This document shows positions 1 through 36,687 of a stretch of DNA of 64,000 bases, one piece after another. Source of the stretch: Oscillospiraceae bacterium. Lineage in GTDB: Bacteria; Bacillota; Clostridia; Oscillospirales; Ruminococcaceae. Both the position numbers and the translations under genes were made by a program. Every line of letters starts with the position of its first letter. The stretch's first letter is position 1. The stretch is from assembly GCA_017472965.1 (NCBI GenBank), contig JAFUNR010000003.1:1-64000 (forward strand), written 5' to 3'. Below the pieces are notes generated by a model that did no database searches, was not told where the DNA came from, and saw nothing but the letters and a program-made list of their open reading frames with translations.

Positions 1-256
1 CGTCTTCGTCCAGCGTGCCTGTGTTGTAGTTCCCTGACAGTTCTTGGTATGGTATAACCGGCGTCTGCCCCACGTAGGGCAGCGCCAGGTTGTAGTTCCC
101 TGACAGTTCTTGGTATGGTATAACTGGAACTATAATTATACATAGACGCAACTCGTTGTAGTTCCCTGACAGTTCTTGGTATGGTATAACAAATATATCA
201 AAACTATGCAGCTTGCAATGGTTGTAGTTCCCTGACAGTTCTTGGTATGGTATAAC
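1..256 (+). CRISPR. Type II-C CRISPR array, proximal end
   Basis: Four identical 36-bp repeats lie at 23-58, 89-124, 155-190 and 221-256, separated by three unique 30-bp spacers (59-88, 125-154, 191-220). Bases 1-22 are a partial spacer, so the array continues beyond the left edge. The repeat starts GTTGTAGTTCCC and ends GGTATAAC, which resembles type II-C repeats such as those of Neisseria and Geobacillus. The sense crRNA is inferred to be the plus strand, because the tracrRNA upstream of cas9 carries the complement of this strand. No AT-rich leader is seen on the cas2 side, so the leader would lie off-window or crRNAs may start inside repeats. The four repeats show no degeneracy. Confidence 0.97.
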
Positions 257-265
257 GGCTGTCAC

Positions 266-301
266 AAAAAGCCCCATTTTCCTTGGAAAATGGGGCTTTT
301 T
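266..301. terminator. Bidirectional terminator between array and cas2
   Basis: A perfect 15-bp stem (266-280 pairing with 287-301) with a 6-nt loop carries an A-run on the left arm and a T-run on the right. It can end transcripts from both sides: the plus-strand array and the minus-strand cas operon, which stops at 318. Confidence 0.85.
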
Positions 302-317
302 GCTGCGAAAAAATCGA

Positions 318-641
318 TCAGAAAATGCTGAGCTGCTCGCAGGGAAAATCGGTTTCTTCTTCCACGGAAAGTCTGCCCACAAGGATCTCGATAGCTGCAT
401 ATTGCTTTTCGGTGATGGTCAGCAGCCGCACCGAGCCGTTATCCGGCAGATGGGCATACAGCCGTGCGCGGTGGGTATTTACCGCATCCATACCGCAGCA
501 CACCCTTGCATACAGTGAATACTGCAGCATATGATAGCCATCCTTCAGCAGAAAATTCCGGAACTGTGTGGCGACCCGCCTTTCGGCGGCAGTTTTGACC
601 GGCAGGTCAAAAAATACAAGCATCCGCATCAGCCTATTCAT
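318..641 (-). CDS. cas2: CRISPR-associated endoribonuclease-fold protein Cas2
   Basis: This 107-residue protein has the normal Cas2 size. The N-terminal beta strand MLVFFDLPV carries the conserved Asp (D12) of the ferredoxin-like fold. In type II systems Cas2 forms the central dimer of the Cas1-Cas2 integrase that inserts new spacers. The start codon at 641 lies inside the end of cas1 (8-bp overlap), so the two genes are translationally coupled. It is the last gene of the operon and is followed by a strong terminator 17 bp downstream. Family assignment is from sequence; the adaptation role is known for the family. No csn2 or cas4 follows, which fits subtype II-C. Confidence 0.95.
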   Translation of the reverse strand: MNRLMRMLVFFDLPVKTAAERRVATQFRNFLLKDGYHMLQYSLYARVCCGMDAVNTHRARLYAHLPDNGSVRLLTITEKQYAAIEILVGRLSVEEETDFPCEQLSIF

Positions 642-1539
642 ACCGGTGCAGCTCCGTACCGGTCAGCTCCGGAAGAAGCAGAGCCGCACCGCGCTCACCG
701 CAGGCGCGCCGCAGACTTTGCACCGTCAGCTCCATGGCGTGGGCGGCGGTATGGCGCTTGCCGTCGATACGCATTTCCGCATGCAGCAGCTCCAGCAGGC
801 GGTGTTTGATCGCGGGTGAAAGTGCTGCGGGCGCCTGCGGGCCGATCTGCGTCGCCACAAACAGATCGACCAGCGGGCGGTAGGGTTCGATCAGGTCATC
901 GGCCAGATTAAAGGCGTTCAGCTCGCTGCAGTGGTTCAACCCCAGCGCGGGGAGAAAGCCGTAGCCGGCCAGCAGCCGGGCCAGATGCCCACGCATAATG
1001 GCATAGCCGTAATTCAGCCCGGCATTGACCGCGCATTCCCCGCCCCGTGTAAAACCCTTGCCGAACAGAGCGGGAAAATACTGCGCCGCTGCGGCGCTTT
1101 CCTGATGGGTCGCGTCGCCGCTTTGCACGGCAGCGGCGCGGCTTTGCAGAGCGGCGGCAGCTTCGGCTGCACCGCACTGCTGCAGGCAACGGGCCTGATT
1201 TTCGATCTTGGCGCGCACCAGCTGCTGCCACAGCCGCTTTTTGGCGGGCAGGGTCAGTGCAAGCTGATCCTTTATCACGGCGTACTGCCGGCTGTGGCTG
1301 TTCCATGGAGTGTATACGCCGCAGGGCATATGCCGTGCATCACAGATGAATACCGTAACGCCTGCTTCGGCACAGGCGGCCAGTGCGGCGGCGGTCAGGG
1401 TGGAGCGGGGATCCTCCAGCAGCAGGCAATCCACATCCTCCAGCGGCAGATGCCGCTCGGCGTCGGTCAGGATCACCAGCTGCTGCTGCCGCACGCTGAT
1501 GCGTGCGGCGCTCTGGATGAATACGCTGCGGTAGCCCAT
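634..1539 (-). CDS. cas1: CRISPR-associated integrase Cas1 (type II)
   Basis: The 301-residue protein is the catalytic subunit of the spacer-acquisition integrase. The three metal ligands of the family are visible: E147 in THQESAAAAQYF, H203 in ALGLNHCSELN and the acidic cluster near D214-E218 in NLADDLIEPYRP. The block NAGLNYGYAIM just before H203 is typical of type II Cas1. The ATG at 1539 is preceded by GGAGGTG. It begins 26 bp after the cas9 stop and overlaps cas2 by 8 bp, so cas9-cas1-cas2 form one transcript. All key residues are present and no frameshift is seen, so adaptation is probably functional. Confidence 0.96.
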   Translation of the reverse strand: MGYRSVFIQSAARISVRQQQLVILTDAERHLPLEDVDCLLLEDPRSTLTAAALAACAEAGVTVFICDARHMPCGVYTPWNSHSRQYAVIKDQLALTLPAKKRLWQQLVRAKIENQARCLQQCGAAEAAAALQSRAAAVQSGDATHQESAAAAQYFPALFGKGFTRGGECAVNAGLNYGYAIMRGHLARLLAGYGFLPALGLNHCSELNAFNLADDLIEPYRPLVDLFVATQIGPQAPAALSPAIKHRLLELLHAEMRIDGKRHTAAHAMELTVQSLRRACGERGAALLLPELTGTELHRYE

Positions 1540-1565
1540 GCATCCTTCACCTCCCGGCAGGGCGC

Positions 1566-4500
1566 TCAGCGGCCAAAGGTCTGGCGGGTCTCGCGATTCA
1601 CTTTAGTGTAATTGCCCAATACATCCACCTGATATTTTTCGATCAGAGGAAGAGTTTTGACTCCAAGACTATCTATTTTATATGTGCGGCGGTCAGTTTT
1701 AACGGAAACGGCACCAGTGCTAATACAGCAGCTTTCATAGTAGAGATAGGCATCCTTAATGAGTAGTTCCTTCGGTAAGGTACTCTCTTTGTTGCACAAA
1801 GCCATCTTCATAGACTTTTTGGCAGTTACACGAATCAGGTCTCCCGGATACAGCGAGAAAATGAAGTGTTTTTCTTTCATTTCCTTCCATTCTGTGTAAG
1901 GTTTATACGCAATGATAGCCTTATTCGGAAGTTCTCTTTTCAGTGTATCCGCCACATAAATCGGCACCAGATAGTAACCGTCACCCTCTACATGGAACAC
2001 ATCCACCCGCACCATGGTATCGTGTGCGGCAATGCCGGTATTTTTCTGCACCGGTACATTCAGCGTGCTCTTTTCGATCAGCTTGACACTCTTGACCAGA
2101 GGGCCGGGAGTGCCGTCCGCTTTCGGCTTGTAAAAATCGCCGGCAAAGGCTTTTTTGGCATCTCCGCCGTAACGGATCAGCTGCTGCTTCAGCGCATTGT
2201 ACAGTAAGCGGTCGGAATCAGGCATATAGTAATCGGCGATCTCGCCATCCTTGTCCAGCTTCAGCTCGGAGAGCCTGGCTTTGTAGACGATCATGCCCTC
2301 ATCGGCGGCTTTGGCGCTGAATACCGTGGCCTTGTGCGCCGGGCCTGTTACCTTGTGATCCGGCATGCGGGATACGAATACGGGCTTTACCTGCTGCAGA
2401 ATATGCGGCGGATAGGTGGCAAGGTGCAGCGCTTCCAGCGCCGCAGCGGGGTCATCGGCAAGCCGGGCCTCCAGCTCGGCCCTGAAATGCGGCCAGGGCT
2501 TCGGCGTGGTCTCCTTTGCCTCGCCGGTGCGGGGGTCGATGCGGTAGCTTCCGTCCTCACTGAAATACCAGCGGTTTTCCCGGTGGGCAGCATATTCCGA
2601 TATGCGCTGGATCATGCCTTGCGTGGTACAGGCAACAACAACGGCATCCAGTGCATGATGTGTGTCGCCGTCCGCGCGTACCTTGCTCAATCCCCAACGC
2701 TTGCGCAGCTCGGCGGTAACAGCGCCGTTGACCGCAATGACATGGTTCAGCTTTTTGTAGCCGGGAAGCGAAGTGAAGAGGAGATGATCCCGGATATAAT
2801 TGTACAGAAACCGCTCCATGGCTTTGGTATCCTGCAGTGCGCGTTCCTTGAATTCGCCTTTTTCCTGTTCGGAAAGGTGCTCTTTCAGCAGCCGCTGACG
2901 CTTGCGATGGTCTTTCACATTAGCGTTGACCCAGACGATGAAATCCTCCCGCGCCTTGCCCTGCAGATATTCCAGCGGCAGACGGTTGCCCTTTTGACGG
3001 TTGGCTGCGCTTACCACCAGCACTTTGTTTTTATAGCTGTCATCAAAGCTGATGCTGTAAGGAATAATGTGATCCACATCCACATAGCCGGGATCAAAAA
3101 GCTTTTGAATATCCAGATGCTGCTGGGTATAGGGACAGACCTCGCCCTGCATCTTCCAAAGCTTGAATTTTACAAGATCCTGTGGAGTGGGAGATTGAAT
3201 GCCGAGATCCTTGCGCAGTTGTTCCATGGCCGCTTCGTTGAGCTGACGGTTGGCATCCATATCCCGCTCCATTTGGCGGCGCTCATCAAAGGTGCGGCTC
3301 AGCTCCCGTGCCTGTTCGATATTCAACCGTACCGGGCTGCCGTATTTCCGTACCAGAGCGTTGATCACTTTGACGGTTTGCGAAACAGCACGTAATACCA
3401 CCGGGCTGGTAATATTGGCATAATCCTGCTGTGTGGGATGCAGCAGGGCGGTGCGTTCGGTATCTGTATGAGCGCGGTGATCATAACCGACAGCGGCACA
3501 GGCATCCGCGTAGGAAAGCCCCTGTTCCAGCAGAGGATTCAGTTTATTGCATGCCATCAGGCTGATGTGTCCGCGTCCGCGGAAGCCGGTCAGCCCCCGC
3601 AGCAACGCATCGGTGTCATAGGCGGTCAGGCCGGCTGCCAGCAGACGCTTTTCCGCTTCCGCATCCTCCAGATTCAGGGTAAAGACCTCGCCGATTGTAT
3701 CCAGCTGGCTGTGCGACAGTGCGCGGATGCGGCCTTTGGACACCTTGTCCAGCGCCTTGCGAATTTGATGATAGGCCCGCAGATGGTCAAATTTGCGCTT
3801 TTTCTCCACCTCGGTCGGGTCGCTCTTGCCATAGGGCAGACCCTTGAAAAGATCCTCTTCCGAAAGACCCAGCTCCTTGCGAAGCCTTTCGTAGGAAGGC
3901 GCTGCGGTGGAATGGGCAAGCGCGATCAGCCGCTGCCGCTCATCGGCTGTCAGCGGGCGGCTTTCGCGGTTGGATTCGATGCGCATATTGTTGAGCGCCT
4001 GCAGCAAAGAGAACAGCTCAAAGGAATAACAGGCCTTGGGGGCGCGCTTTTCACCGGATTCCGGTTCCAGCGTGCACAGACCTACATTGAATTCCTCGTT
4101 GCTGCCTTTGTACGGGCTGCCCGGGCCGGGGCCGTCGGCAAAAGAACGCTGGCTTTGCAGAATGTCGAGATATGTTTTTTCCAGTTCCGGTGCGGCAAAA
4201 GTGCTGCCGAACCGGCGCTGCGCCGCAAAAACAGCTTCGGCCTCCTGCACAATGGCTGTGCGCGGCAGCGTGCACAGGTATTCGCCGCCCTGATTTCGTT
4301 TGTGCCCGGCGAATCTGGAATCGAGCAGCATCATTTCGCCGGCGGTACGGTATTGGGCAAGCAGCGTCTCGTTTTCCTTTACCGCAGCAAGCAGCTTGCC
4401 CTGCTCTTTATCCTTTTCAGCGGCGGCTTCCTCTGATTTTTTGTTGGAGCGGAAGCCGCGCCGCTGCGCCAGATGCAGCAGAATGCGGGCGAATTCGGTA

Positions 4501-4841
4501 CGGCTCACAGCTTCATCCAGCGCACGCACCCGCAAAGCGTAGATATCCGGCAGCTTTCCGTTATACAGATGGTCCAGTTCTTCCTGCGAAAGAAGACCGG
4601 CCTTGAGCATGGCCTGCTGAATGCGATCCAGCCTGTGGCGGTGACGGCGCAGACGGCGGCGCATGCTGCGGGCATCCCGGCGGGGCGCAGCAAGAGATGC
4701 GCCAGTTTTGGGATGCTCGGCCGTCTGAAAAACACGGCTTCCCAGATCGATGATGCGGAAAGGGTCTCCGTTGGCATCCAGTTCGATCGCGGCCCATCCG
4801 ACGGAGGCCACGCCGATATCCAATCCGATGGCATAATTCAT
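1566..4841 (-). CDS. cas9: Compact type II-C Cas9 RNA-guided nuclease
   Basis: The 1091-residue effector cuts DNA matched by crRNA:tracrRNA. Domains in order are: RuvC-I (IGLDIGVASVGWA, D8), an Arg-rich bridge helix (about 54-75), a recognition lobe (about 80-480), RuvC-II (VRLNIEQAREL, E509), HNH (about 565-625, VDVDHIIPYS with H591 and N614), RuvC-III (DTHHALDAVVVA, H729 and D732) and a C-terminal PAM-interacting region. All nuclease residues are intact. The size matches the small II-C class such as Neisseria and Geobacillus Cas9 (about 1080 aa). An upstream in-frame ATG at 4895 is possible, but it would lie upstream of the promoter -10. The ATG at 4841 has AGAGAGG nine bases upstream and begins MNYAIGLDIG, the usual Cas9 N-terminus. 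The PAM cannot be read from sequence. Confidence 0.98.
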   Translation of the reverse strand: MNYAIGLDIGVASVGWAAIELDANGDPFRIIDLGSRVFQTAEHPKTGASLAAPRRDARSMRRRLRRHRHRLDRIQQAMLKAGLLSQEELDHLYNGKLPDIYALRVRALDEAVSRTEFARILLHLAQRRGFRSNKKSEEAAAEKDKEQGKLLAAVKENETLLAQYRTAGEMMLLDSRFAGHKRNQGGEYLCTLPRTAIVQEAEAVFAAQRRFGSTFAAPELEKTYLDILQSQRSFADGPGPGSPYKGSNEEFNVGLCTLEPESGEKRAPKACYSFELFSLLQALNNMRIESNRESRPLTADERQRLIALAHSTAAPSYERLRKELGLSEEDLFKGLPYGKSDPTEVEKKRKFDHLRAYHQIRKALDKVSKGRIRALSHSQLDTIGEVFTLNLEDAEAEKRLLAAGLTAYDTDALLRGLTGFRGRGHISLMACNKLNPLLEQGLSYADACAAVGYDHRAHTDTERTALLHPTQQDYANITSPVVLRAVSQTVKVINALVRKYGSPVRLNIEQARELSRTFDERRQMERDMDANRQLNEAAMEQLRKDLGIQSPTPQDLVKFKLWKMQGEVCPYTQQHLDIQKLFDPGYVDVDHIIPYSISFDDSYKNKVLVVSAANRQKGNRLPLEYLQGKAREDFIVWVNANVKDHRKRQRLLKEHLSEQEKGEFKERALQDTKAMERFLYNYIRDHLLFTSLPGYKKLNHVIAVNGAVTAELRKRWGLSKVRADGDTHHALDAVVVACTTQGMIQRISEYAAHRENRWYFSEDGSYRIDPRTGEAKETTPKPWPHFRAELEARLADDPAAALEALHLATYPPHILQQVKPVFVSRMPDHKVTGPAHKATVFSAKAADEGMIVYKARLSELKLDKDGEIADYYMPDSDRLLYNALKQQLIRYGGDAKKAFAGDFYKPKADGTPGPLVKSVKLIEKSTLNVPVQKNTGIAAHDTMVRVDVFHVEGDGYYLVPIYVADTLKRELPNKAIIAYKPYTEWKEMKEKHFIFSLYPGDLIRVTAKKSMKMALCNKESTLPKELLIKDAYLYYESCCISTGAVSVKTDRRTYKIDSLGVKTLPLIEKYQVDVLGNYTKVNRETRQTFGR

Positions 4842-4866
4842 ACACAAGCACCTCTCTTCTGTTTTC

Positions 4867-4895
4867 ATTATACATCCCGATAAATATCTTGTCAA
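4867..4895 (-). promoter_or_regulatory. Consensus sigma-A promoter of cas9
   Basis: On the minus strand TTGACA (4890-4895) and TATAAT (4867-4872) are separated by exactly 17 bp, a perfect consensus. Initiation near 4860 gives a leader of about 19 nt. The -35 overlaps the last two bases of the tracrRNA terminator T-run. Confidence 0.9.
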
Positions 4896-4992
4896 AAAAA
4901 GATGACGCCCTGCTGTAGACAGGGCGTCAGAGCTTTTCGGTGTACTACCTTATCATAGTAACCTGTGCAGTTCTTGGTATGGTATAAGAACT
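4894..4992 (-). ncRNA. tracrRNA of the Cas9 system
   Basis: Bases 4968-4987 are identical to 20 bases of the CRISPR repeat on the plus strand. A minus-strand transcript therefore carries the anti-repeat that pairs with crRNA. Partial repeat identity continues to about 4955 with a small bulge, as in II-C duplexes. The RNA would start near 4992, seven bases after a consensus -10. After the anti-repeat and a linker it ends with a perfect 10-bp hairpin (4903-4912 with 4920-4929) and a seven-base U-run at 4894-4900. The predicted length is about 99 nt. Position, anti-repeat, promoter and terminator agree; the exact ends are inferred. Confidence 0.92.
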
Positions 4993-4998
4993 GTTTTT

Positions 4999-5027
4999 AT
5001 TATAGCTGGACAAAGGGAACTTGTCAA
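4999..5027 (-). promoter_or_regulatory. Consensus sigma-A promoter of the tracrRNA
   Basis: On the minus strand TTGACA (5022-5027) and TATAAT (4999-5004) are spaced 17 bp apart, again a perfect consensus. The promoter lies between the anti-repeat and the stop codon of the neighbouring membrane-protein gene at 5032. Confidence 0.9.
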
Positions 5028-5031
5028 GACT

Positions 5032-5685
5032 TCAGAGAAGAGACAACACTTTTGACACCCCCACATACGCCAGCCCCACAAGATAAAAAGCGGCGAGGTA
5101 GATCACCAGATTCTTGGCAAGGCCCTTGGGGCCGAGGGCTTCGGCATCGAGGAAGGGGTAGGGGTAGCGGGGGCCGTCGGGTCTGCCGTTCATGGTGCCG
5201 CCGAAGCGGCCGCGCAGCAGCGCATAGGCCACGTAAGCCAGCGGCAGCGCCAGCCATGCGGCGGCGCTCCACAGCGGGGCGTTTTTTTCGGCGCATATGG
5301 CCCAGCACAGGATCACCAGCCACGGCACCGCGTAATGCACCGTCAGATTGTCAAAGGTGAAATACTCCTGCCGGAAGCGGTCGGGGTGATCTCTTTTATA
5401 GCCGGGCGTCAGGATGAAATGGTACACCACAAAGGTGATCGTGATACAGGTTACCACAATGATGCGTACCCACGGTGCGCTTAAAAAGGCATACAGAGTG
5501 CTTTGCGGTGCAAAGGAAACGCCGAACAGCAGCGCATGGAAAAGCACCATCAGCAGGTTGCTCTGGCTGGTGTAAAAGACGAACATTCCCTTGTTGTATT
5601 CGCCCCGCAGGATGCGGCTGGCACGCAGCAGCGCCGCGCCGCCCAGCCCTGCGATCAGCAGGCAAAAAATGCGTTCGGTCAGCAC
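5032..5685 (-). CDS. Pr6Pr-like integral membrane protein
   Basis: A 217-residue polytopic membrane protein with about six hydrophobic segments. The central signature YFTFDNLTVHYAVP and the late block RYPYPFLD resemble the Pr6Pr family, whose function is unknown. The start is uncertain. A GTG at 5685 has GGGAGG nine bases upstream and begins only 4 bp after the esterase stop at 5690. An in-frame TTG at 5706 would overlap the esterase end and place the GGGAGG inside the gene. I chose the GTG, which suggests coupled expression with the upstream esterase. The stop lies just beyond the tracrRNA promoter, so this operon ends where the CRISPR region begins. Confidence 0.75.
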   Translation of the reverse strand: MLTERIFCLLIAGLGGAALLRASRILRGEYNKGMFVFYTSQSNLLMVLFHALLFGVSFAPQSTLYAFLSAPWVRIIVVTCITITFVVYHFILTPGYKRDHPDRFRQEYFTFDNLTVHYAVPWLVILCWAICAEKNAPLWSAAAWLALPLAYVAYALLRGRFGGTMNGRPDGPRYPYPFLDAEALGPKGLAKNLVIYLAAFYLVGLAYVGVSKVLSLL

Positions 5686-5689
5686 GGGA

Positions 5690-6496
5690 TCATTCCTCCC
5701 AGCCAAACAGGCGGTTCAGCCAGCGGGCGGAAAGCTCTGTCCATGTGGCGATCTGTGCATCGGCAAAGCCGGTTTCTGCGGCAGCAAGCGAAAGCCCGTG
5801 GGGACCGTGATCGTACATATGCAGCTCACAGGGGATGCCGGTCTCCTGCATGGCCAGTGCCAGCCGCAGACTGTGGCGCGGACAGACAGTGGCATCCTCA
5901 AAAGTGGTCCACAGAAAGGCCGGCGGCATATCGGCGCGTACCTGCTCCTCGATGGCGAAATACTCCAGCCATTCCGGTTCATTGGCGGTCAGCTTTTCGG
6001 CGACATAGATATCGCCGGTGCCGGCGGCTGCGCGGGGCGAGACGACCGGATAGCTCAGTATCACGGCATCGGGGCGGGCATCGGGTGCAGAAAGGCGGTC
6101 GTCATCCCAGTGCACGGCCAGGCTGGCGCACAGGTGGCCGCCGGCGGAAAAGCCCACCGCCGCGATGCGGTGCGGGTCGATCTGCCAATCGGCGGCGTTT
6201 TTGCGGATCAGGCTCATGGCGGCAGCGGCATCGCACAGCGGCTTCAGATACAGCGGCGCGGGGATGCTTTCGCTGATGACGGTGTAGTTCAGCACAAAGG
6301 CATCATACCCGCGGCCAAACCAATCCAGTGCAATGGGCTCGGCTTCGCGGGCAGAGCAGAAATGATAGCCGCCGCCCGGCAGCACCAGCATGGCGGGACG
6401 GATATCGCGGCCGCTCATCTCGGGGAAGCGGTCGTGCAGATAGGCGGTGAGCACAGCGGGAGAGTTTTCAAGAACGGGCATCCGGAAACAACGCAT
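5690..6496 (-). CDS. Alpha/beta-hydrolase, BD-FAE/acetyl-esterase type
   Basis: A 268-residue alpha/beta hydrolase of the esterase/lipase class often found with xylan- or pectin-degrading enzymes. The oxyanion block is LPGGGYHF, the nucleophile elbow is GFSAGG, and a late His occurs in DHGPHG, giving a plausible Ser-Asp-His triad. No signal peptide is present, so it should act in the cytoplasm on acylated sugars. The chosen ATG at 6496 has AGGAAAGG nine bases upstream. An ATG at 6505 directly abuts that site and is less likely. It is the second-last gene of a minus-strand run with a glycosidase upstream and a membrane protein immediately downstream. Confidence 0.82.
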   Translation of the reverse strand: MRCFRMPVLENSPAVLTAYLHDRFPEMSGRDIRPAMLVLPGGGYHFCSAREAEPIALDWFGRGYDAFVLNYTVISESIPAPLYLKPLCDAAAAMSLIRKNAADWQIDPHRIAAVGFSAGGHLCASLAVHWDDDRLSAPDARPDAVILSYPVVSPRAAAGTGDIYVAEKLTANEPEWLEYFAIEEQVRADMPPAFLWTTFEDATVCPRHSLRLALAMQETGIPCELHMYDHGPHGLSLAAAETGFADAQIATWTELSARWLNRLFGWEE

Positions 6497-9883: not shown

Positions 9884-10957
9884 ATGGATAAAAGGCTGAG
9901 CTGGGAGCAGATGATGGCTCCCGTATGGGATACGGATACCGTGTGGGGAGAAAGTCTGCTGATGGTGCGCGATGATGCAGGAAAGGCGTGTGCGCCGCTG
10001 CTGTATGCACCGGAAAGGATTTTGAGCGTTACGAACGCGATGATGACCGAGGAATATGAGGAGGGCCGCGACTGGGTGTTGGAAAACGGCTGCCTGTGCC
10101 TGACACCGGATTCCCGCATCTTCTGCTTTACCCAGCAGGAGCTTTATCCGTCCGAGGGTGCGCCCGGCGCAAGCTTTCCCATGCCGGGGGGCAATATCCT
10201 CTTCGGCGAGGCTGATTTCTTCCACAAGCGGCAGATCGCCGTCAGCTATACCGTGAAGGACTGTGACTGGCCGGGGGTAAAGCCTGTATGCGCCAAAGAG
10301 CTGCTGCCCCGCACATGGAAAGCGCTCTGCGAAAAACGCCCGCTGCACCTGCTTGCCTACGGCGACAGCATCACCTGGGGCGGCAACGCCAGCATGCGTT
10401 CCAACGCACAGCCGTTTCAGCCCCCTTACGGGGAGCTTTTCGCCGAATGGCTCAACCGTATGTGGAAATCTCCGGTTCGTTTTACCAACACCGCCGTCGG
10501 CGGCAGAGACAGCATATGGGGTGTGGAGAATACGGAGCTGATGGTCAACGATTACGCGCCGGATCTGGTGCTGCTGGCCTTCGGCATGAACGACGGCAGC
10601 AAGACCCCGCAGGAATTTGAAAGTTATACCCGCCGCACGGTGGAACGCATCCGCGCTGCGCTGCCGGAATGCGAGTTCATTCTGGTGGCCACAAGCACAC
10701 CCAATCCCATCCTCACCGATGAAAAGGCTCCGTTCTGGGGCAATCAGTGCCGGTTCAGGCCGGTGCTGGATGCCATCGCGGCGGATCCGGCCTATGGCGG
10801 AGGTATCGCCGTGGCGGATATCACCGGCATGCAGGCGGCGCTGCACAGCCGCAAGCGGTTCATCGACACCACCGGCAACCATGTCAACCATCCCAACGAT
10901 TTCTTCCACCGGCTGTATGCACAGTTCCTGTGCGGTATGCTGAGCCCGGAAGCGTAA
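9884..10957 (+). CDS. SGNH/GDSL-family hydrolase (carbohydrate esterase-like)
   Basis: A 357-residue protein with an N-terminal beta-sandwich (about 1-145) and a C-terminal SGNH domain. Block I is AYGDSITWGG with nucleophile Ser162, the Gly block is TAVGGRDS, the Asn block is FGMND, and the Asp-His block is NHPNDFFH. The layout matches two-domain acetylxylan-esterase-like CE2/CE3-type enzymes, so deacetylation of an oligosaccharide is likely. There is no signal peptide. The ATG at 9884 follows GCGAGG; an earlier in-frame start at 9839 would overlap the -10. The M42 peptidase starts 17 bp after its stop, so the two share a transcript. Confidence 0.85.
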   Translation: MDKRLSWEQMMAPVWDTDTVWGESLLMVRDDAGKACAPLLYAPERILSVTNAMMTEEYEEGRDWVLENGCLCLTPDSRIFCFTQQELYPSEGAPGASFPMPGGNILFGEADFFHKRQIAVSYTVKDCDWPGVKPVCAKELLPRTWKALCEKRPLHLLAYGDSITWGGNASMRSNAQPFQPPYGELFAEWLNRMWKSPVRFTNTAVGGRDSIWGVENTELMVNDYAPDLVLLAFGMNDGSKTPQEFESYTRRTVERIRAALPECEFILVATSTPNPILTDEKAPFWGNQCRFRPVLDAIAADPAYGGGIAVADITGMQAALHSRKRFIDTTGNHVNHPNDFFHRLYAQFLCGMLSPEA

Positions 10958-10974
10958 ATAAGGAGAAGATCGCT

Positions 10975-12060
10975 ATGTCTTTCACTGTTGATCCCCGCGC
11001 ACTGGAATGCATCCGTGCGCTGAGCGAGGCGCGTGCGCCCTCCGGCTTCGAGGATGAAGCTATCGCCGCCGCTCGCCGTTTTGTCCCCGGGGGCTACACC
11101 GTCACCGAGGACTGCATCCGCAACCTGTATCTGCACCGCAAAGCCAATACCGGTACAAAGCCGGTGCTGATGCTGGATGCCCATGCCGATGAGGTGGGCA
11201 TGATGGTGCATTCCATTCACCCCAACGGCACGCTGCGTTTTGTGACGCTGGGAGGCTGGAATCCCGCCAGCCTGCCGGCTGCCCGGGTGCTGGTGCGCAA
11301 CAGGCACGGTGAATTCATCCGCGGTATGATCGCGGCCAAGCCCTCCCATTTCATGACCGAGGCCGAACGCAAGGCGCTGCCCGCCGTGCGGGATCTGGTC
11401 ATCGATATCGGTGCGTGCAGCGCACAGGAGGCGCAGGAGGTATTCGGCGTGCGCATCGGCGAGCCGGTGGTGGCGGATACCCCGTTTTATTACGACGAAA
11501 AGCATGACCTGATCCACGGCAAGGGCTTTGACTGCCGCATCGGCTGCGCCGCGCTGCTGGAAGCACTGCGCCGGCTGGAGAACGAAGAACTGGCGGTGGA
11601 TATCGTGGGCGTGCTCTCCGCTCAGGAGGAGGTTGGCGAGCGCGGCGTGCGCGTGGCGGTGGAAAAGGTGAAGCCGGATATCGCGATCTGCTTTGAAGGC
11701 TGCCCCGCCGACGACACTTTTACTCCGGATTATGCCATCCAGACAGCGCTGAAAAAAGGCCCCATGCTGCGCTTTATGGATACCAGCGTCATCTGTTCGC
11801 CCCGCTATCAGCGCTGGGCGCTGGAGCTGGGGGAAACAAACGGCATCCCCGTGCAGGCCAGCGTGCGCGAGGGCGGCGGCAATAACGGCGCATTCATCAA
11901 TGTGGCTGCGGGCGGTGTGCCTGTGGTAGTGACCGGCGTGCCGGTGCGCTATATCCACACCCCCGCCGGCATGACCAGCTACCGGGATTTCGAATCCACC
12001 GTGCAGCTGACCGTCGCTATGGCGAAGGCGTTGAACAGGGACATCATTGCCGGCTTCTGA
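10975..12060 (+). CDS. M42 family metallo-aminopeptidase
   Basis: A 361-residue cytoplasmic M42 (glutamyl aminopeptidase/tetrahedral aminopeptidase) protein. Metal and catalytic blocks of the family are present: LDAHADEVGMMV near the N-terminus, GKGFDCRIG, SAQEEVGERG (Glu pair), a following CFEGCPADD, and RYIHTPAG near the end. An inserted PDZ-like dimerisation region occurs around 90-170, as usual. AAGGAGAAG precedes the ATG. It follows the SGNH esterase by 17 bp and is followed by a terminator. A second M42 member lies at 30477. The Asp usual after the Glu pair is replaced in the CFEG block, so the exact ligand set should be checked. Confidence 0.9.
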   Translation: MSFTVDPRALECIRALSEARAPSGFEDEAIAAARRFVPGGYTVTEDCIRNLYLHRKANTGTKPVLMLDAHADEVGMMVHSIHPNGTLRFVTLGGWNPASLPAARVLVRNRHGEFIRGMIAAKPSHFMTEAERKALPAVRDLVIDIGACSAQEAQEVFGVRIGEPVVADTPFYYDEKHDLIHGKGFDCRIGCAALLEALRRLENEELAVDIVGVLSAQEEVGERGVRVAVEKVKPDIAICFEGCPADDTFTPDYAIQTALKKGPMLRFMDTSVICSPRYQRWALELGETNGIPVQASVREGGGNNGAFINVAAGGVPVVVTGVPVRYIHTPAGMTSYRDFESTVQLTVAMAKALNRDIIAGF

Positions 12061-12082
12061 TGCAGAAGAACGGCGGCAGAAG

Positions 12083-12114
12083 GGGGCGGCTGCGGATGCA
12101 GCGCGCCCTTTTTT
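12083..12114 (+). terminator. Terminator after the M42 gene
   Basis: A GC-rich stem (GGGCG-GCTGC against GCAGC-GCGCCC) is followed by a TTTTTT run on the plus strand, just after the M42 stop codon. Confidence 0.75.
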
Positions 12115-12177
12115 CGCCCGGTACAGCGGTGGAGTATATGATACACTGTGTGAGGGAAAAAGAGAAAGGAACAGACA

Positions 12178-12759
12178 TTGGATAAAAAATTGTGCCGTCC
12201 GGCAAAGCGGATGCTGCGGCGGCTGAAGAAAGCGGCGGCACTGGAAAAAACAGTGGTGCTGTACGGTGCCAGCGGCAGCGGAAAAAGTCTGCTGGCGCAG
12301 AAGCTGTGCGAAGAGCTGCGCGCCGGGGGCAAAACCGTACAGGTGTGCAGCGCCCGCAGTATGGTGGATGCACTGACGGAGAAAATCGGCCGCGAGGAGC
12401 TGCGCCGCGATATATATACAAAGAAAACCGCCGATCTGCTGGTACTGGAAAATGCTGAGGATCTGCGGGGAAAAAGCTGTACCTGCGGCCTGCTCGCGGA
12501 GCTGAACGGCGGAGCGCTGCTGCTGATCAGCACCCGTCCGCTGCCGGGGATCTGCGCTGTCTGCCCTCCGGAGCGCTTGCTGGTGCTGCACGCAAAAATG
12601 CCTCCGCTTGGCTGCCGTCTGCGATGGATCCTGTATGCGGCAAGGCAGCAGCAGGTACGGCTTTCGCCGCTGCAGCTGTACCGTCTGGCAAGGCTGGATC
12701 CCGGCAGGGCCGCCGGAGCACTGAATGCGATAGCCCTGCGCCGCTGCTGCGGGCAATAA
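12178..12759 (+). CDS. DnaA-domain-III-like standalone ATPase
   Basis: This 193-residue protein is a P-loop ATPase whose segments line up with DnaA domain III. They are Walker A GASGSGKS (30-37), a helix resembling the DnaA segment after strand 2 (SMVDALTEKI), Walker B LLVLENAEDLRGK (87-99), a sensor-1-like STRPLPGI (118-125) and a final GRAAGALNAI (176-185) like the DnaA sensor-2 block. It stops there. There is no N-terminal oligomerisation domain and no C-terminal DnaA-box-binding domain IV. The usual Asp-Asp of Walker B is Glu-Asn, so hydrolysis may be impaired. Translation starts with TTG at 12178 after AAAGGA. It is 42 bp upstream of a zinc-ribbon/PcfJ-domain gene on the same strand. Its function is unknown. 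Confidence 0.7.
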   Translation: MDKKLCRPAKRMLRRLKKAAALEKTVVLYGASGSGKSLLAQKLCEELRAGGKTVQVCSARSMVDALTEKIGREELRRDIYTKKTADLLVLENAEDLRGKSCTCGLLAELNGGALLLISTRPLPGICAVCPPERLLVLHAKMPPLGCRLRWILYAARQQQVRLSPLQLYRLARLDPGRAAGALNAIALRRCCGQ

Positions 12760-12801
12760 TGCATTGGGTTGACTGTCCATAAAGAGAAAAAAGGAGTCTG
12801 C

Positions 12802-14454
12802 ATGAAAGAACATACCGTATGGTGTGAGTTGCCGGACGGTTATCAGATCATAGAAAAAAGCCGGGAGCTTCCACTGTCCAAAGCCGAGGCATGGCTGCTG
12901 ACCCGGCGGCGGCAGCGTTACACTGCCGCCTGCAGGAATGGCGGCCGCGCGGTGCTGATCCGGCATGTGATCCGCTGCCCGTACTGCGGCGGTGAGTTGC
13001 CTGCCTACCCGCGTTTCGCGGCCGGTCTGCTGGAGGAATGGTACGGTGCGATACCGGCGGTACCCTCGCGGGAAGCGGTGCACACCTGGGCGTGGGACAC
13101 TCCTGCGCGGCAAAGCGGCACTCTGCAGCTCAACGAGCCCTGCCGTGCAGGCGGTATGTACCACTGCCTGCGCTGCGGCAAATGGTCTACACCGTTTGAA
13201 CGCCCGGTACGGGTGTGCCTGCGTTACAGCAGGAAAAGGCTGGTGTTGGAGTGTATCACCACAGATCTGAGCACGCTGCTGCAGGAGCCGTGGTTTATAC
13301 AGGAACGCATCACACTGCCTGTGCCTGTGCATGAACAGCTGGAATTTCATTTTGGTCGGGGGCGTACCTGCCTGCGGATGCTGGATATGCAAGGCCGGCA
13401 GCTGGCAGTACGGGATATTACCGACAGCGGCACCGTCACCGGCAGTGTGCTGATGCGGTTGCTGCATGACTATCCCCTGCTGCGCCGTGCCGTCGGCAGA
13501 GCTTTTGCCGCCAGCGGGGCGCCGCTTGCCGTCCGATCGTCGCAGCTGCGGCTGCAGGATCTGATCGAAGCGACACGGTTTATCGGGTTCCCCCGTGCTT
13601 TTTATGCCGCGATCCCCTATAATCTGGATACCCGCAGGCTTGACCGCAGCTTCCGCGCTGCGGCGCTGCGTCTGCACCGTTCCGAATGGGTGGAGCAGGC
13701 GTATCGTGCTATCGGGCTGCCCGGTACAAAATCGATTCGCCGCCTGTTTTTTCAGCGGCCATGGCTGCTGTTTTATCCACAGGAAGCACTCTGGCTGTGG
13801 CAGGCGACGGGCAGCCCCAGCGTCTTCTGCCGTTTGCTGGATTGTGACCGCGGCTGCGGTAGACTGGCTTTTCTGCATCAATATCCTGCCGTTTCTGACT
13901 TTTTTGTGGATTACGGCCGTGTGAAAGGCGCTGCCGCCCTGCGCCGCAGCATGGAGCGGGAGGAGGATACCCTGCTCGTTGCGGCGCTGTGCTATGCCGC
14001 GATGAATCCGCGGCTGCGTTTGCAGGAACAGCAGCGCTGGAAGCGCAAGGAAAAACAGCAGCGGGCTTTTCGTGCAGCAGCGTATTCCGTACCTGTCACC
14101 CATATACCGGCCGAATCAATGGAGGGAACGGCGGACGGCTGCACCTTCCGTTGGCTGCGCAGCACCAATGACTGCCGCGCAGCAGGAAAAGCATTGGACA
14201 ACTGCCTTCTGGACTGGAGCGCCGGTATGCCGCCCGTACTGCTGGTGAGCAGACAAGACAGTCCGGTAGCGGCGGTGGAGGTGCGCGACGGGACGATCAC
14301 ACAGGCATATCTGGCGCATAACCGTGTACTGAAAAATGATTACGCTGTACTGTGTGCGGTAGAACGCTGGGCGCAGCGCTGCGGCTTATGCTGGAGTTGT
14401 GACCCGTGGACCCAGGAGGATGAGGAGGAGGATGCGGATGAGCTGCTGTTCTGA
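12802..14454 (+). CDS. Zinc-ribbon protein with a PcfJ-like C-terminal domain
   Basis: A 550-residue protein. A zinc ribbon is formed by CPYC (C59, C62) and CLRC (C122, C125). A long Arg/Leu-rich central region follows. The C-terminal part (about 440-525) has the PcfJ pattern: NDCRAAGKALDNCL, a VLLVSRQD strand, PVAAVEV, ITQAYLAHNR and a final helix. The last 20 residues are very acidic. PcfJ proteins were named from conjugative plasmids and their biochemical role is not established. AAGGAG lies before the ATG at 12802. It pairs with the DnaA-like ATPase 42 bp upstream and is followed within 50 bp by a creatininase gene. No relaxase, integrase or conjugation gene is nearby. Confidence 0.72.
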   Translation: MKEHTVWCELPDGYQIIEKSRELPLSKAEAWLLTRRRQRYTAACRNGGRAVLIRHVIRCPYCGGELPAYPRFAAGLLEEWYGAIPAVPSREAVHTWAWDTPARQSGTLQLNEPCRAGGMYHCLRCGKWSTPFERPVRVCLRYSRKRLVLECITTDLSTLLQEPWFIQERITLPVPVHEQLEFHFGRGRTCLRMLDMQGRQLAVRDITDSGTVTGSVLMRLLHDYPLLRRAVGRAFAASGAPLAVRSSQLRLQDLIEATRFIGFPRAFYAAIPYNLDTRRLDRSFRAAALRLHRSEWVEQAYRAIGLPGTKSIRRLFFQRPWLLFYPQEALWLWQATGSPSVFCRLLDCDRGCGRLAFLHQYPAVSDFFVDYGRVKGAAALRRSMEREEDTLLVAALCYAAMNPRLRLQEQQRWKRKEKQQRAFRAAAYSVPVTHIPAESMEGTADGCTFRWLRSTNDCRAAGKALDNCLLDWSAGMPPVLLVSRQDSPVAAVEVRDGTITQAYLAHNRVLKNDYAVLCAVERWAQRCGLCWSCDPWTQEDEEEDADELLF

Positions 14455-22143: not shown

Positions 22144-22192
22144 CCAGTTAAAGAGCTCACCCCAAACACTTTCACGCGAAAGGAGCTTTGCC

Positions 22193-24352
22193 ATGATCAG
22201 CAAGCGCATTGAGGAACTGGCCGCTCTTACCGTTGAGCGCGGCAAAAATGCCCCCTCCTCCACCTTTTTTCAGGAGCTGCACGATGCAGCGCTGGGACTG
22301 TACGCCGAATGTCCCCGGTGGGAAAAGATCGCCCGCTCCATGGCACAGGCCATCGCCGGTATGCCGGTATATATTTATCCGGAGGACACCATCGGCGGGC
22401 GCACCTACCAGAACAGAACCCTGCCGCCGCAGACCATCGCCCCCGATCTGGACTGCGACACCCCCGCACGGCAGGAGTTTCTGGCGCAGTACCCCGAAGC
22501 GGAGCTGCTCTTTCGGGATTATCTCATCACCGGCACAGCCAAGGGCCACATCATCTGGGATTTCTCCCGCATCCTGACACTGGGCATCACCGGTCTGCGC
22601 GCCCGCTATGAAGAAGCGCTCGCCGCCGCCCGGGATGAGGAGGCGCAGCAATTCTACAGCGGCGTGCTGATCCTGCTGGATGCCGTGCTCGCTTTCAATG
22701 ACAAGCACATCGAAGCCTATCGCGCCGCCGGCAGGCAGGAGCTTGCCGACCGCATGGCAAAGGTGCCGCGTTACCCCGCCGAGACCTTCCGCGAAGCGGT
22801 GCAGGCCTTCCATATGCAGCATTTGTGCGTCATGGCGGAAAACCCCTACGGCGGCAACGGCCCCGGACGGCTGGATTATTATCTGTGGCCGTATCTGGAG
22901 CGGGATCTTGCCGCAGGGCGCTGCACGCTGGAAGAAGCCAAAGAGATCATCGATGAGCTCTTTCTGCGCTTCGACGAGCGGCTTTACGGCATGGACGGCT
23001 GGGTGGAAGCCGTTGTGATCGGCGGCAGCCACCCCAACGGCGGCAGCGCCGTCAATCCGCTGAGCTACATCATGCTGGATTCCATCATGGATCTGGATAT
23101 TCTGCACCCCTCCATCTATGTCCGTCTGCCCAAGGCGCCGCCCGCCGAGCTGGTAAGCGCCTGCGCCCGGTATGTGCTTTCCGGCAACAACCGCGCCCAG
23201 ATCCTCTCCGATGAGGCCATCATGGGTGCGCTGGTACGCCGCGGCATCTCCACCCGGGATGCAGCCGACTATGTGTGCGGCGGCTGCATGGAGGTCGGTC
23301 TGCAGGGCATGAGCTCGGATTATCTGTACATCGGCTGGCACAACCCGCCCAAAATGCTGGAGCTGATGCTCACCGGCGGCGAATGCCTGCTCACCGGCAA
23401 AAAGAACCCCGCTTTCCACGCAGACAAAAGCCTGACCGGCTACGCGGATTTTGAAAGCTTCTACGCCGATTTCATCGCTGAAGCCACCCGCATCACCCGC
23501 ATCTATCTCGCCGAGCAGGATATCGGCAGCAAGTGGGCGCAGCTGGCGCGGCCTTCCTACCTGATCTCCTCCATGATCGACGACTGTCTGGAACGCGGGC
23601 GCAATATGCACGGCGGCGGCGCACGCTACCACGATTACGGCGGCACTCCGCTGGGTCTGCCCAATGTGGCGGACGGTCTGTATGCGGTCAAACGGGCGGT
23701 GTTCGAGGATAAGCTCTGCACTGCCGAAGAGCTGCTGGCAGCACTGAAGGCGGATTTCAAGGGCTATGAGCGGTTGCAGGCACAGCTGAAGCGGCTGCCG
23801 AAATACGGTGTGAACGACCCGGATGCCGATGCCATGGCGCGGCGTGTGGCATCGGATTTTGCCGATATCTACGAGGGCTATACCACCCGCTGGGGCGGCA
23901 AGGGCAAGCTGGTCATCCTGACCTTCACCTTTGCCCCGCCCGCAGCCTCCGTGCTGGGCGCGACAGCGGACGGCGGCAACGTCCACCGGCTGGTGGCGCA
24001 TGGCGTGACGCCCCATTCCTCCGCCATGACCGAGGGCATCACGGCGGCCATTCTTTCGGCCGGCTGCATGCCGTTTGAAAAATTCGCGGGCGGCGCTTCC
24101 ACCATGTGGGATTTTGATCCCGCATGGGCCACCGAACCCATCGTGGAGGCAGTGCTGCGCACCTTTATCGAAAACGGCGGACAGATCTTCCAGGGTGATG
24201 TCACCCCGCTGGAGGAGCTTCTCGATGCACAGCAGCATCCGGAGGAGCACGCAAATCTTGTGGTGCGTGTGGGCGGCTATTCCGCCCGTTTTGTCAATCT
24301 CTCCCCCGAACTGCAGGAAAATGTCATCTGCCGCATCCGTCACAATCACTGA
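22193..24352 (+). CDS. Non-PFL glycyl radical enzyme (dehydratase/lyase type)
   Basis: A 719-residue glycyl radical enzyme. The C-terminal radical loop is VVRVGGYSARF (Gly695). The active-site thiyl block is CGGCMEVGLQG, with Cys365 and Glu367 in the C-x-E pattern shared by glycerol/diol dehydratases, choline lyase and related enzymes. Pyruvate formate-lyase instead has adjacent Cys-Cys. The enzyme is therefore more likely a radical dehydratase or C-X lyase than a formate-lyase. It is 60-130 residues shorter than characterised members (780-850). GGAG precedes the ATG at 22193. Its activase starts 25 bp downstream and a glycosidase-like gene follows, so the substrate may be sugar-derived; that last point is inference. 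Confidence 0.9.
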   Translation: MISKRIEELAALTVERGKNAPSSTFFQELHDAALGLYAECPRWEKIARSMAQAIAGMPVYIYPEDTIGGRTYQNRTLPPQTIAPDLDCDTPARQEFLAQYPEAELLFRDYLITGTAKGHIIWDFSRILTLGITGLRARYEEALAAARDEEAQQFYSGVLILLDAVLAFNDKHIEAYRAAGRQELADRMAKVPRYPAETFREAVQAFHMQHLCVMAENPYGGNGPGRLDYYLWPYLERDLAAGRCTLEEAKEIIDELFLRFDERLYGMDGWVEAVVIGGSHPNGGSAVNPLSYIMLDSIMDLDILHPSIYVRLPKAPPAELVSACARYVLSGNNRAQILSDEAIMGALVRRGISTRDAADYVCGGCMEVGLQGMSSDYLYIGWHNPPKMLELMLTGGECLLTGKKNPAFHADKSLTGYADFESFYADFIAEATRITRIYLAEQDIGSKWAQLARPSYLISSMIDDCLERGRNMHGGGARYHDYGGTPLGLPNVADGLYAVKRAVFEDKLCTAEELLAALKADFKGYERLQAQLKRLPKYGVNDPDADAMARRVASDFADIYEGYTTRWGGKGKLVILTFTFAPPAASVLGATADGGNVHRLVAHGVTPHSSAMTEGITAAILSAGCMPFEKFAGGASTMWDFDPAWATEPIVEAVLRTFIENGGQIFQGDVTPLEELLDAQQHPEEHANLVVRVGGYSARFVNLSPELQENVICRIRHNH

Positions 24353-24377
24353 TCACGCAAAATTACGGAGTGTACGC

Positions 24378-25286
24378 ATGGAAGAAAAATGCCTTGTTTT
24401 CAACATTCAGAAATTTTCCGTCAATGACGGACCCGGTATCCGCACCACTGTTTTTCTGAAAGGCTGCATGCTCAACTGTCTGTGGTGCCACAACCCCGAA
24501 TCCAAATCCCGGCATCCGCAGGTCATGCTGACCCCGCGGCTTTGCGTGGGCTGCGGCAGCTGTCTTTCCGCCTGCCCGCAGGGGCTGCACAGCTTTGCCG
24601 AAGACGGCACCCATCAGATCGACCGCAGCCGCTGCACTGTCTGCGGCAGCTGCGCCGATGCCTGTGTGGGCGCGCTGGAGGTGTGCGGCAAGCCCATGAC
24701 GGTGGAGGAGATCCTGACCGAGGTGATGAAGGACAGCGCCTTTTACAAACATTCCGGCGGCGGCATGACCGTCTCCGGCGGCGACCCGCTGTTCCATCCC
24801 GCCTTTACGCTGGCACTGCTGCGTGCTGCCAAAGAAAAAGGGCTGCACACCTGCATTGAAACCAGCGGCCATGCCCGCTGGGAGGATCTGGAGGCGCTTA
24901 TTCCCTACGTGGATATCTTCCTGTGGGATGTCAAAGAGACCGACTCCGCCCGTCACAAACAGTTCACCGGCGTGGGGAACGAGCGCATTCTGGAAAACCT
25001 GCACAGACTGGATGCCGCCGGCGCCAAAACCGTGCTGCGCTGCCCCATCATCCCGGGCTGCAACGACCGTCCGGAGCATCTGGCCGCCATCGCCGCGCTT
25101 TCGTCTGAGCTTCAGAACGTGCTGAACATCGATGTGGAGCCCTACCACCCGCTGGGCAAAAGCAAAAGCGAGGCGCTGGGCGAAAGCTACGCACTGGGCG
25201 ATCTGGGTTTCCCCGAGGATGCCACCGTCAAGGAGTGGATCGCAGCCATTGCCGCCGGCACGAAAGTGCCGGTGAAGAAAGCGTGA
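24378..25286 (+). CDS. Glycyl radical enzyme activase (radical SAM)
   Basis: A 302-residue radical-SAM protein that abstracts hydrogen from the Gly of its partner. The SAM cluster motif CMLNCLWC (C30, C34, C37) is followed by GGMTVSGGDP. Two inserted 4Fe-4S ferredoxin motifs occur at C56-C59-C62-C66 and C86-C89-C92-C96. The double-ferredoxin insert is typical of activases for non-PFL enzymes and absent from PFL activase itself, which supports the partner assignment. GGAG lies upstream of the ATG at 24378. It starts 25 bp after the glycyl radical enzyme stop. Confidence 0.93.
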   Translation: MEEKCLVFNIQKFSVNDGPGIRTTVFLKGCMLNCLWCHNPESKSRHPQVMLTPRLCVGCGSCLSACPQGLHSFAEDGTHQIDRSRCTVCGSCADACVGALEVCGKPMTVEEILTEVMKDSAFYKHSGGGMTVSGGDPLFHPAFTLALLRAAKEKGLHTCIETSGHARWEDLEALIPYVDIFLWDVKETDSARHKQFTGVGNERILENLHRLDAAGAKTVLRCPIIPGCNDRPEHLAAIAALSSELQNVLNIDVEPYHPLGKSKSEALGESYALGDLGFPEDATVKEWIAAIAAGTKVPVKKA

Positions 25287-25334
25287 CCGTTTCTCTGATT
25301 TACCATACACATTGATCCGGGAGGGCCTTTCACC

Positions 25335-27002
25335 ATGAAAATCAATTTGATCGATAACGGCTTTTGCAAAGCAGCCGGACTTCTGCGCACCCGCATTCTT
25401 GAGCGCATCCCCGCCGAATTTTCTACAGACGGTTTGCCGCTGGAGCTTTGCGTCGATGCAGGCATCGGCTGCGCCGAAAGCTACTGCATCCTTGCAGCCG
25501 GCAACGGCTGGCGCATCACCGGAGCGGATCACTGCGGTCTGATTTTCGGAGTGGGCAAATTTCTGCACACTGCACGCTGGACAGCGGACTCCTTCACGCC
25601 CCGGCCTCCGCAGGGGGTCGTTTCCCCCGCCTGCGATTTCCGCGCGCTGGATTGCCCCAGCCATTTTTACAACTGGTATCAGATGGCACCCGTTGAAGAA
25701 TTGACGCGCTATCTGGAGGATATGATGCTGTGGGGCTACAACACCGTTTACAGCAGCATGGGCGTGGTCAATATGGAACGGCTGGACGGCCCGCTTTTCC
25801 GCCGGACGGCAGAACGCTTCCGCAGCATATTCGGCGCAGCCAAGGAGCTTGGTCTGCGCATCGGGCTTGGTCTGAGCCCCAATCAGGCCGAGCGCAGTGC
25901 CCCGCGCGAATTCGATGCGGACCTTTCCTTCAATCTGGAGCTGCGCGGCTCTCTGGGGCGCAATCTCTGTCTTTCCAAGCCCGGTGCACTGGAGCATATG
26001 CGCGGCGTCTGGCGGGCACAGCTGGAGCAATATACCGATATCGGCATCGACTATGTCAGCACATGGCCGTACGATGAGGGCGGCTGCGGCTGCCCTTCCT
26101 GCCGGCCGTGGGGCTCCAACAAATATTGCGACGGCTGCATCGAGCTGGCCAAAGAGGTACACCGCTATTATCCCGACGCAAGGATCATCGTATCCACCTG
26201 GGCCTTTGATGCTCCCAATGACGAAGGTGAATTCGCCGGGCTTTACCGCCGGCTTTCCGGCGATATGAGCATCGCAGATTATCTGCTGGTGGATGCGCAC
26301 GGCGATTTTCCCCGTTACCCGCTGGAGCATGAGCCCATCAAGCCCATCGTCAATTTCCCCGAGATCAGTATGTGGGGGCTGGCCCCATGGGGCGGCTTTG
26401 GCGCCAACCCGCTGCCGGAACGCTTCCAGCGTCTGTGGGACAGCGTCTCCCATCTGGTGCAGGGCGGTCTGCCCTATTCCGAAGGCATTTACGAGGACAT
26501 CAATAAGGTGCAGTATATCGGCTACTACTGGCAGCCGGACCGCCATTGGACCGACATTCTTGCCGAATACATCCGCTACGAATACGCCGAAGATGCAGTG
26601 GAGGAGGTTCTGGAGCTGATGCGCTGCATCGAGCACAGCCACACACGGATCGCCGGGGAGCAAATGCCCGACGCCGCCGTTGTACGCCGCGCAGCACAGC
26701 TGGCCGCCGCCGTAAATGCCCGCCTGAGTGACCGTGCGCGCAGCGCATGGCGCTGGCGTATCCTGTATATCCGCGCCGTTCTGGACGAAAAGCGCTACAC
26801 TCATCTGCTGGCCGATACCGCAGAGGATCCCAAAAAACTGCTGCGCTTCCATTATTATTCCGGCGACCGCCTGCTGGATGATCCGGAGGCCCAGAAGCTC
26901 TTCCTTGAGCTGCAAGGCTACTACCATTGCGTTCCCCACAATGGCGAAAACCATCACACTCTGCCGCCTGCCGGCGGCACCAAACTGGATGTTGTGATCT
27001 GA
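25335..27002 (+). CDS. Glycosidase-like TIM-barrel protein (GH20/GH67-like)
   Basis: A 555-residue protein. An N-terminal alpha/beta domain (about 1-85) resembles those preceding the barrel in GH20, GH67 and GH84 enzymes. A TIM barrel with STWPYDEGGCGCPSCRPWG follows, the Asp-Glu pair being a likely catalytic site, with several Cys possibly binding metal. The C-terminus is helical. I cannot assign a numbered family with confidence. No signal peptide is present. GGGAGG precedes the ATG, 48 bp after the activase, so the glycosidase and radical enzyme probably act in one pathway on a glycoside. Confidence 0.68.
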   Translation: MKINLIDNGFCKAAGLLRTRILERIPAEFSTDGLPLELCVDAGIGCAESYCILAAGNGWRITGADHCGLIFGVGKFLHTARWTADSFTPRPPQGVVSPACDFRALDCPSHFYNWYQMAPVEELTRYLEDMMLWGYNTVYSSMGVVNMERLDGPLFRRTAERFRSIFGAAKELGLRIGLGLSPNQAERSAPREFDADLSFNLELRGSLGRNLCLSKPGALEHMRGVWRAQLEQYTDIGIDYVSTWPYDEGGCGCPSCRPWGSNKYCDGCIELAKEVHRYYPDARIIVSTWAFDAPNDEGEFAGLYRRLSGDMSIADYLLVDAHGDFPRYPLEHEPIKPIVNFPEISMWGLAPWGGFGANPLPERFQRLWDSVSHLVQGGLPYSEGIYEDINKVQYIGYYWQPDRHWTDILAEYIRYEYAEDAVEEVLELMRCIEHSHTRIAGEQMPDAAVVRRAAQLAAAVNARLSDRARSAWRWRILYIRAVLDEKRYTHLLADTAEDPKKLLRFHYYSGDRLLDDPEAQKLFLELQGYYHCVPHNGENHHTLPPAGGTKLDVVI

Positions 27003-27022
27003 GCCGGCAGTCATTTTCGCGC

Positions 27023-27051
27023 TTGACAACCCGGTCTTTGTTTGCTATAAT
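27023..27051 (+). promoter_or_regulatory. Consensus promoter of the T-box/thrS transcript
   Basis: TTGACA (27023-27028) and TATAAT (27046-27051) are exactly 17 bp apart, with a TGC extended -10. Confidence 0.92.
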
Positions 27052-27057
27052 CACTGC

Positions 27058-27337: not shown

Positions 27338-27373
27338 CTTATTCAAAATAAAAAACGAATAGGAGAACACATC

Positions 27374-29140: not shown

Positions 29141-29164
29141 ATCCGATAAACTTTCGGCAAATTA

Positions 29165-29194
29165 TTTACTTTTCCGGTGCGGGTGTGGTATACT
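29165..29194 (+). promoter_or_regulatory. Promoter of the acyltransferase gene
   Basis: TTTACT (29165-29170) and TATACT (29189-29194) are 18 bp apart, with a TGG extended -10. The start codon follows at 29239. Confidence 0.65.
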
Positions 29195-29238
29195 TTTTTG
29201 TGTATAAACTGTGAAAAGCACAGAGAGGAATCATTTTT

Positions 29239-30435: not shown

Positions 30436-30476
30436 CCGCCGTTTTATCTGCCGTATCAACGGAAAGGAGTTTTACC

Positions 30477-34536: not shown

Positions 34537-34584
34537 AGTAAACCTCCTCAGGTTTGTTTTTCAAAAGTTCCTGTTTGTTTTTCG

Positions 34585-36679: not shown

Positions 36680-36687
36680 TGCATCAC

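Follow-up and report, generated by a model that had tools for sequence, protein, structure and literature searches.

The stretch of DNA that was analysed, called the window below, comprises 64,000 nucleotides from an Oscillospiraceae bacterium. A tracrRNA gene (approximately 4992-4895), cas9, cas1 and cas2 were found in this order on the - strand within positions 1-4992 of the window, next to a CRISPR array with its crRNA strand on +. The coordinates of all features are presented in Table 1.

Table 1. Features of the CRISPR-Cas locus, in window coordinates.
Feature	Position	Strand	Remarks
CRISPR array	1..256	+	5' side cut by contig end; probable continuation on contig C13, at its end
Repeats	23-58, 89-124, 155-190, 221-256	+	36 nt, four identical copies, spacing 66
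Spacers	1-22; 59-88, 125-154, 191-220		1-22 partial; the others 30 nt each
Array-cas2 stretch	257..317		18-bp perfect hairpin at 265-302 (inverted repeat, 100% complementary)
cas2	318..641	-	107 aa; TIGR01573 77.9 bits, cut-off 24.5
cas1, type II family	634..1539	-	301 aa; TIGR03639 269 bits, cut-off 120
cas9	1569..4841	-	1091 aa; TIGR01865 746 bits, cut-off 100 (all cut-offs NCBIfam); Pfam HNH_4 and RuvC_III
cas9 promoter	4867..4895	-	TTGACA-17-TATAAT, 12/12; -35 box and last part of the terminator T run overlap
tracrRNA terminator	4893..4929	-	11-pair hairpin (4929-4903) and T run
tracrRNA gene	4895..4992	-	ends approximate, inferred from promoter and terminator
tracrRNA anti-repeat	4952..4987	-	pairs with 32/36 repeat bases: 8 + 4 + 20 pairs, two internal loops
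tracrRNA promoter	4999..5027	-	TTGACA-17-TATAAT, sigma-70, 12/12

The NCBIfam assignments of Cas9, Cas1 and Cas2 were in agreement with those of Pfam and PADLOC. The gap between cas9 and cas1 is 26 bases, cas1 and cas2 overlap, and 61 bases separate cas2 from the last repeat. Neither csn2 nor cas4 was found in the locus, which with cas9, cas1 and cas2 only has the gene content of subtype II-C. The residues D8, E509, H729 and D732, which we take to belong to RuvC, and H591 and N614, taken to belong to HNH, as assigned in the earlier note, were all present in Cas9, and each of these columns was invariant in an alignment of 12 Cas9 proteins (the window's included; the partial L035 as well as L039 and L040 omitted). 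The protein thus carries the RuvC and HNH nuclease motifs of type II.

The earlier note had described a compact type II-C locus, complete and with its RNA parts visible, and all the elements open to testing fit this type. The Cas9 of 1091 residues with the six named residues, the intact Cas1 and Cas2, the tracrRNA gene and the array of identical repeats and 30-bp spacers were recovered as claimed. The completeness does not hold for the array: the first base of the window is the first base of contig C5 and lies inside a spacer.

Beyond the tracrRNA, the first gene had no Pfam match and the second encodes an alpha/beta hydrolase. Elsewhere in the window, long open frames of up to 1184 codons without Pfam matches at the thresholds used were observed at 10792-14103, 22172-30459 and 34439-40233, and two proteins of the ATP synthase alpha/beta family are encoded on the - strand at 54668-56065 and 57012-58523; a V/A-type C-terminal domain is present in one of them.

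Array and contig ends

Contig C5 has a length of 82,217 b in a genome of 2.9 Mb, which is divided into 63 contigs and scored 85% complete. Another contig of the same genome, C13 (128,391 b), terminates within an array of the same repeat, with the order far-end repeat, spacer, repeat, spacer and 14 bases of one more repeat; the last gene before the array on this side was judged by eye. The simplest reading is that the two contig ends are one array broken in assembly. Altogether, five full spacers and one partial spacer are known, three full and the partial one from the window and two full ones from C13. The unique spacers lie between identical repeats, as in type II systems, with the exception of the far-end repeat on C13, which has one mismatch at its first base, corresponding to the crRNA 5' end.

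According to the passages of PMC12080349 on II-C arrays, the last repeat is where spacers are added, and the extra repeat that stands first is the oldest and often mutated. The mutated repeat of C13 sits at the cas-distal, transcription-upstream end, and in 7 of the 11 relatives in which far-end repeats were compared (L024-L034), the most cas2-distant copy was degenerate as well, its changes lying at the crRNA 5' end. Both observations fit the polarity described in those passages. With this polarity, spacers 125-154 and 191-220 would be the newest ones. Their GC contents, 33% and 30%, respectively, can be set against 58% for the window; the corresponding values of spacers 59-88 and 1-22 were 77% and 64%. 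It was also considered whether the far-repeat mutation blocks extraneous crRNA, as in the case described in that part of PMC12080349, and this was rejected: the duplex with the tracrRNA was barely altered (-44.5 vs -44.8 kcal/mol). The single mismatch in the far repeat, with its slight effect on tracrRNA pairing, counts against the II-C account.

Among the seven relatives with a degenerate far-end repeat (L024, L026, L028, L029, L030, L032 and L034), L026 is limited to a single exact repeat plus a degenerate copy, and in L029 four of the inner copies also differ by one mismatch each. No degenerate far-end copy within 6 mismatches was found in L025, L027 and L033. In L031, single repeat copies with 4, 3 and 1 mismatches were observed beyond the array at 9644, 9894 and 10648, spread over about 1 kb; this locus with its loose copies was not scored as degenerate.

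tracrRNA and transcription signals

The 20-base identity to the repeat that had been announced upstream of cas9 was located, beginning at position 4968, and provides the tracrRNA with an anti-repeat to the array repeat, by sequence a type II feature. The energy of the repeat/tracrRNA duplex, -44.8 kcal/mol, was well below that of 200 shuffled tracrRNAs (-17.3 +/- 3.1 kcal/mol, the lowest being -28.7). The fold of 4886-4992 had a z-score of -4.60, and none of the 200 shuffles was as low.

Covariation was studied with 10 of the 12 tracrRNA loci (window included) in which the anti-repeat was located; L031 and L034 were omitted since their 3' parts differ, and the comparison did not take in L035, L039 and L040. 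The 24 pairs were formed in 95.8% of the cells, a value that dropped to 38-48% when the pairing partners were slid; the alignment tested was also the source of the structure, a bias in its favour. Double changes were detected in 7 of the 24 pairs, 6 of these in the terminator stem. Both the paired share and the number of double changes were matched by 0/500 shuffles. The count of further standard pair types was matched by 489/500 shuffles.

The scan totals were near those expected from shuffles, with 4 promoter-like sites (2.7 expected) and 7 terminator-like sites (5.8 expected); therefore, weight is given solely to the covarying terminator and to the two promoters without a mismatch. The hairpin at 265-302, absent from the list of the terminator scan, could end transcription from both sides. 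No Rfam family reached the gathering score in the window; the five matches with E up to 1, obtained with positions 1-6000, were far below the gathering scores. No tRNA was found in the window.

Subtype II-C arrays are transcribed opposite to the cas operon, as stated in a passage of PMC3936727, and the same direction is implied here by the repeat orientation and the tracrRNA pairing. According to PMC7038990, II-C repeats can have last bases that look like an extended -10 promoter, and transcription starts were shown in N. meningitidis. The repeat of the present array ends with TGGTATAAC, which contains TGn and 5 of the 6 bases of TATAAT, the final T being replaced to give TATAAC. The last base was C in 6/6 own copies in contrast to T in 13/13 relatives (L024-L034, L039 and L040), the repeats of which are otherwise similar in sequence. 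The C may weaken the repeat-borne promoter element, and this possible weakness counts against the II-C account as well. If the lost T had reduced the crRNA output, the locus could be a decaying or silent II-C locus with intact genes. However, cas9, cas1 and cas2 are all open, the catalytic residues of Cas9 are kept, perfect promoters precede the tracrRNA and cas9, and the cas2-proximal spacers are low in GC in comparison with the window, as foreign DNA may be. Decay or silencing was considered improbable, and an intact-looking II-C system is preferred.

Related loci and spacer searches

Peptide scans with the query Cas9 alone resulted in no matches in genome_contigs or viral_contigs. With a query made from a two-sequence alignment, 12 loci were found, 9 of them from Clostridia or groups within Clostridia. 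The closest one, L024 (CALWVZ010000010.1, uncultured Oscillospiraceae), has a Cas9 56-57% identical to the query; the identities were 44-57% for L024-L034, 53% for L039 and 47% for L040. The anti-repeat upstream of cas9 was shared by L024-L034. A further relative with 47% identity, L038 (G160:C7:26518-29751), contains one TGA within the matched stretch. In the sample of the window's family, such a Cas9 was detected at E 1e-60 or better in 3 of the 146 genomes, the own genome included; patchy gain and loss is likely. In the Cas9 catalogue PMC7606464, taxon words led to a single passage, which does not concern this group.

The gene order was compared in 14 relatives (L024-L035, L039 and L040). 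The order cas9-cas1-cas2-array recurred in 11 of them; cas1 was present in 12 and cas2 in all 14 (partial in L025 and L035), and array, cas1 and cas2 occurred together in 11. In L035, no array was found. L025 (7249-7524) and L032 (7270-7700), in contrast to the window locus, have no cas1 in the stretch examined, and cas9 and the array are kept. L025 has residues 37-107 of cas2 only and L032 a full cas2, as if acquisition had been lost and interference kept.

As the window begins at a contig end inside the array, the repeats might stand beside the cas operon by chance or through an assembly artefact. Four identical repeats in register, which pair with the tracrRNA, argue against this, as do the near-identical repeat of L024 (35/36 bases) and the position of the array downstream of cas2 in the 11 relatives that also have cas1. 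The probability of such an artefact was considered negligible, and the array is assigned to the II-C locus.

The spacers were searched against phages and plasmids for inferring the PAM, as the earlier note had proposed, and no protospacer was obtained. Exact scans of viral_contigs, run with 20-22 nt from each of the six spacers, were negative for five; the 3' 20 nt of spacer 59-88 matched L021, where the other bases agree in 1/10 positions, and this match was attributed to chance. When the five full spacers were compared with phages by blastn, none of the matches listed (best 10 of 14, 10 of 18, 10 of 23, 7 of 7 and 10 of 50 records) had E < 0.6, and 0, 2, 0, 2 and 0 records, respectively, spanned at least 80% of the spacer. 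Against plasmids (E up to 1), three spacers had no match, one had a single match with E 0.4, and another had, among the best 5 of 6 records, a top match with E 0.04 in Falsirhodobacter; the plasmid matches were also ascribed to chance. With up to 3 mismatches allowed, the five full spacers, searched in 149, 148, 100, 100 and 100 genomes, respectively, matched nothing but the array itself; for the partial spacer, with up to 2 mismatches, the own genome contained no match other than the spacer itself. Hence, neither a protospacer nor a self-target was found in the viral_contigs, phages, plasmids and genomes searched, and the missing protospacer counts against the II-C account. The suggestion that the spacers and the PAM may be undescribed held, with no match for either in the collections searched. 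Such a lack of spacer matches and of PAM tests is usual for II-C orthologues of which only the sequence is known.

PAM-reading residues and proposed working of the system

The best PDB match of Cas9, with 844 bits and aligned over query residues 1-1086, was an entry which we take to be GeoCas9 of Geobacillus. The chains aligning over query residues 1-1077 match a peptide of Nme1Cas9 and are presumably that protein. The former entry carries N961, D1017, N1020 and R1035, the residues through which GeoCas9 touches the PAM bases (PAM N4CRAA) according to the part of PMC11658890 consulted. These residues correspond by alignment to Y979, C1039, T1042 and D1057 of the present Cas9, and all four differ. 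In a separate alignment with the C-terminus of Nme1Cas9, H1024 corresponds to C1039. In the passages of PMC9433092 on 29 Nme1Cas9 orthologues (60-70% identical to Nme1Cas9), of which 25 were active, PAM base 5 is C in proteins with D at the H1024 position and A or G in those with H or N there; closely related II-C Cas9 proteins recognise diverse PAMs. The base-5 column varied among the 12 aligned Cas9 proteins (C, D, S, N, D, G, S, G, H, G, N, H), and residues other than D, H and N were Cys in the present protein and S or G in 5/11 relatives. The PAM is consequently not predictable from the D/H/N classes and, judged by the alignments, probably differs from that of GeoCas9. The CcCas9 system of Clostridium cellulolyticum, as presented in part of PMC7038990, is similarly a clostridial II-C system with a tracrRNA and an array transcribed against the cas genes; it has extended -10-like repeat ends, a likeness by description, and the PAM NNNNGNA.

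A more tentative reading, possible but doubtful, combines the changed residues with the repeat end. With Cys at the base-5 position and the four GeoCas9 contacts changed, PAM reading by Cas9 would fall under none of the classes D, H and N of the Nme1 relatives, base 5 being perhaps relaxed or read differently, and the array would be without repeat-borne promoters, its crRNAs coming mainly from read-through transcription.

We regard the locus as very probably an intact-looking type II-C CRISPR-Cas system because of the gene families and the PDB Cas9 relatives aligned over residues 1-1086, the catalytic residues kept in 12/12 proteins, the duplex energy in comparison with shuffles, the tracrRNA covariation, the two 12/12 promoters, the gene order conserved in 11/14 relatives and the far-repeat polarity. 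Its transcription, processing, interference and acquisition polarity are what we infer from the established knowledge of II-C systems. New spacers would be added by Cas1-Cas2 at the array end nearest to cas2. Transcription of the array would run on the + strand in the direction of cas2, and at least some of it would start from the promoter-like repeat ends. The tracrRNA, produced upstream of cas9, would pair with each repeat RNA, RNase III would trim the duplex, and the dual RNA would guide Cas9 to cut matching invader DNA beside a 3' PAM.

The locus is an ordinary II-C locus, a new relative of the known ones, and leaves the understanding of CRISPR unchanged. The points worth testing are the PAM and the one-base change of the repeat end. 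The aligned Cas9 set, with its varying residues at the PAM-reading column, would test the reach of the D/H/N rule. II-C Cas9 proteins are small, and the orthologue of 1091 residues with changed PAM-reading residues makes a reasonable subject for a PAM screen.
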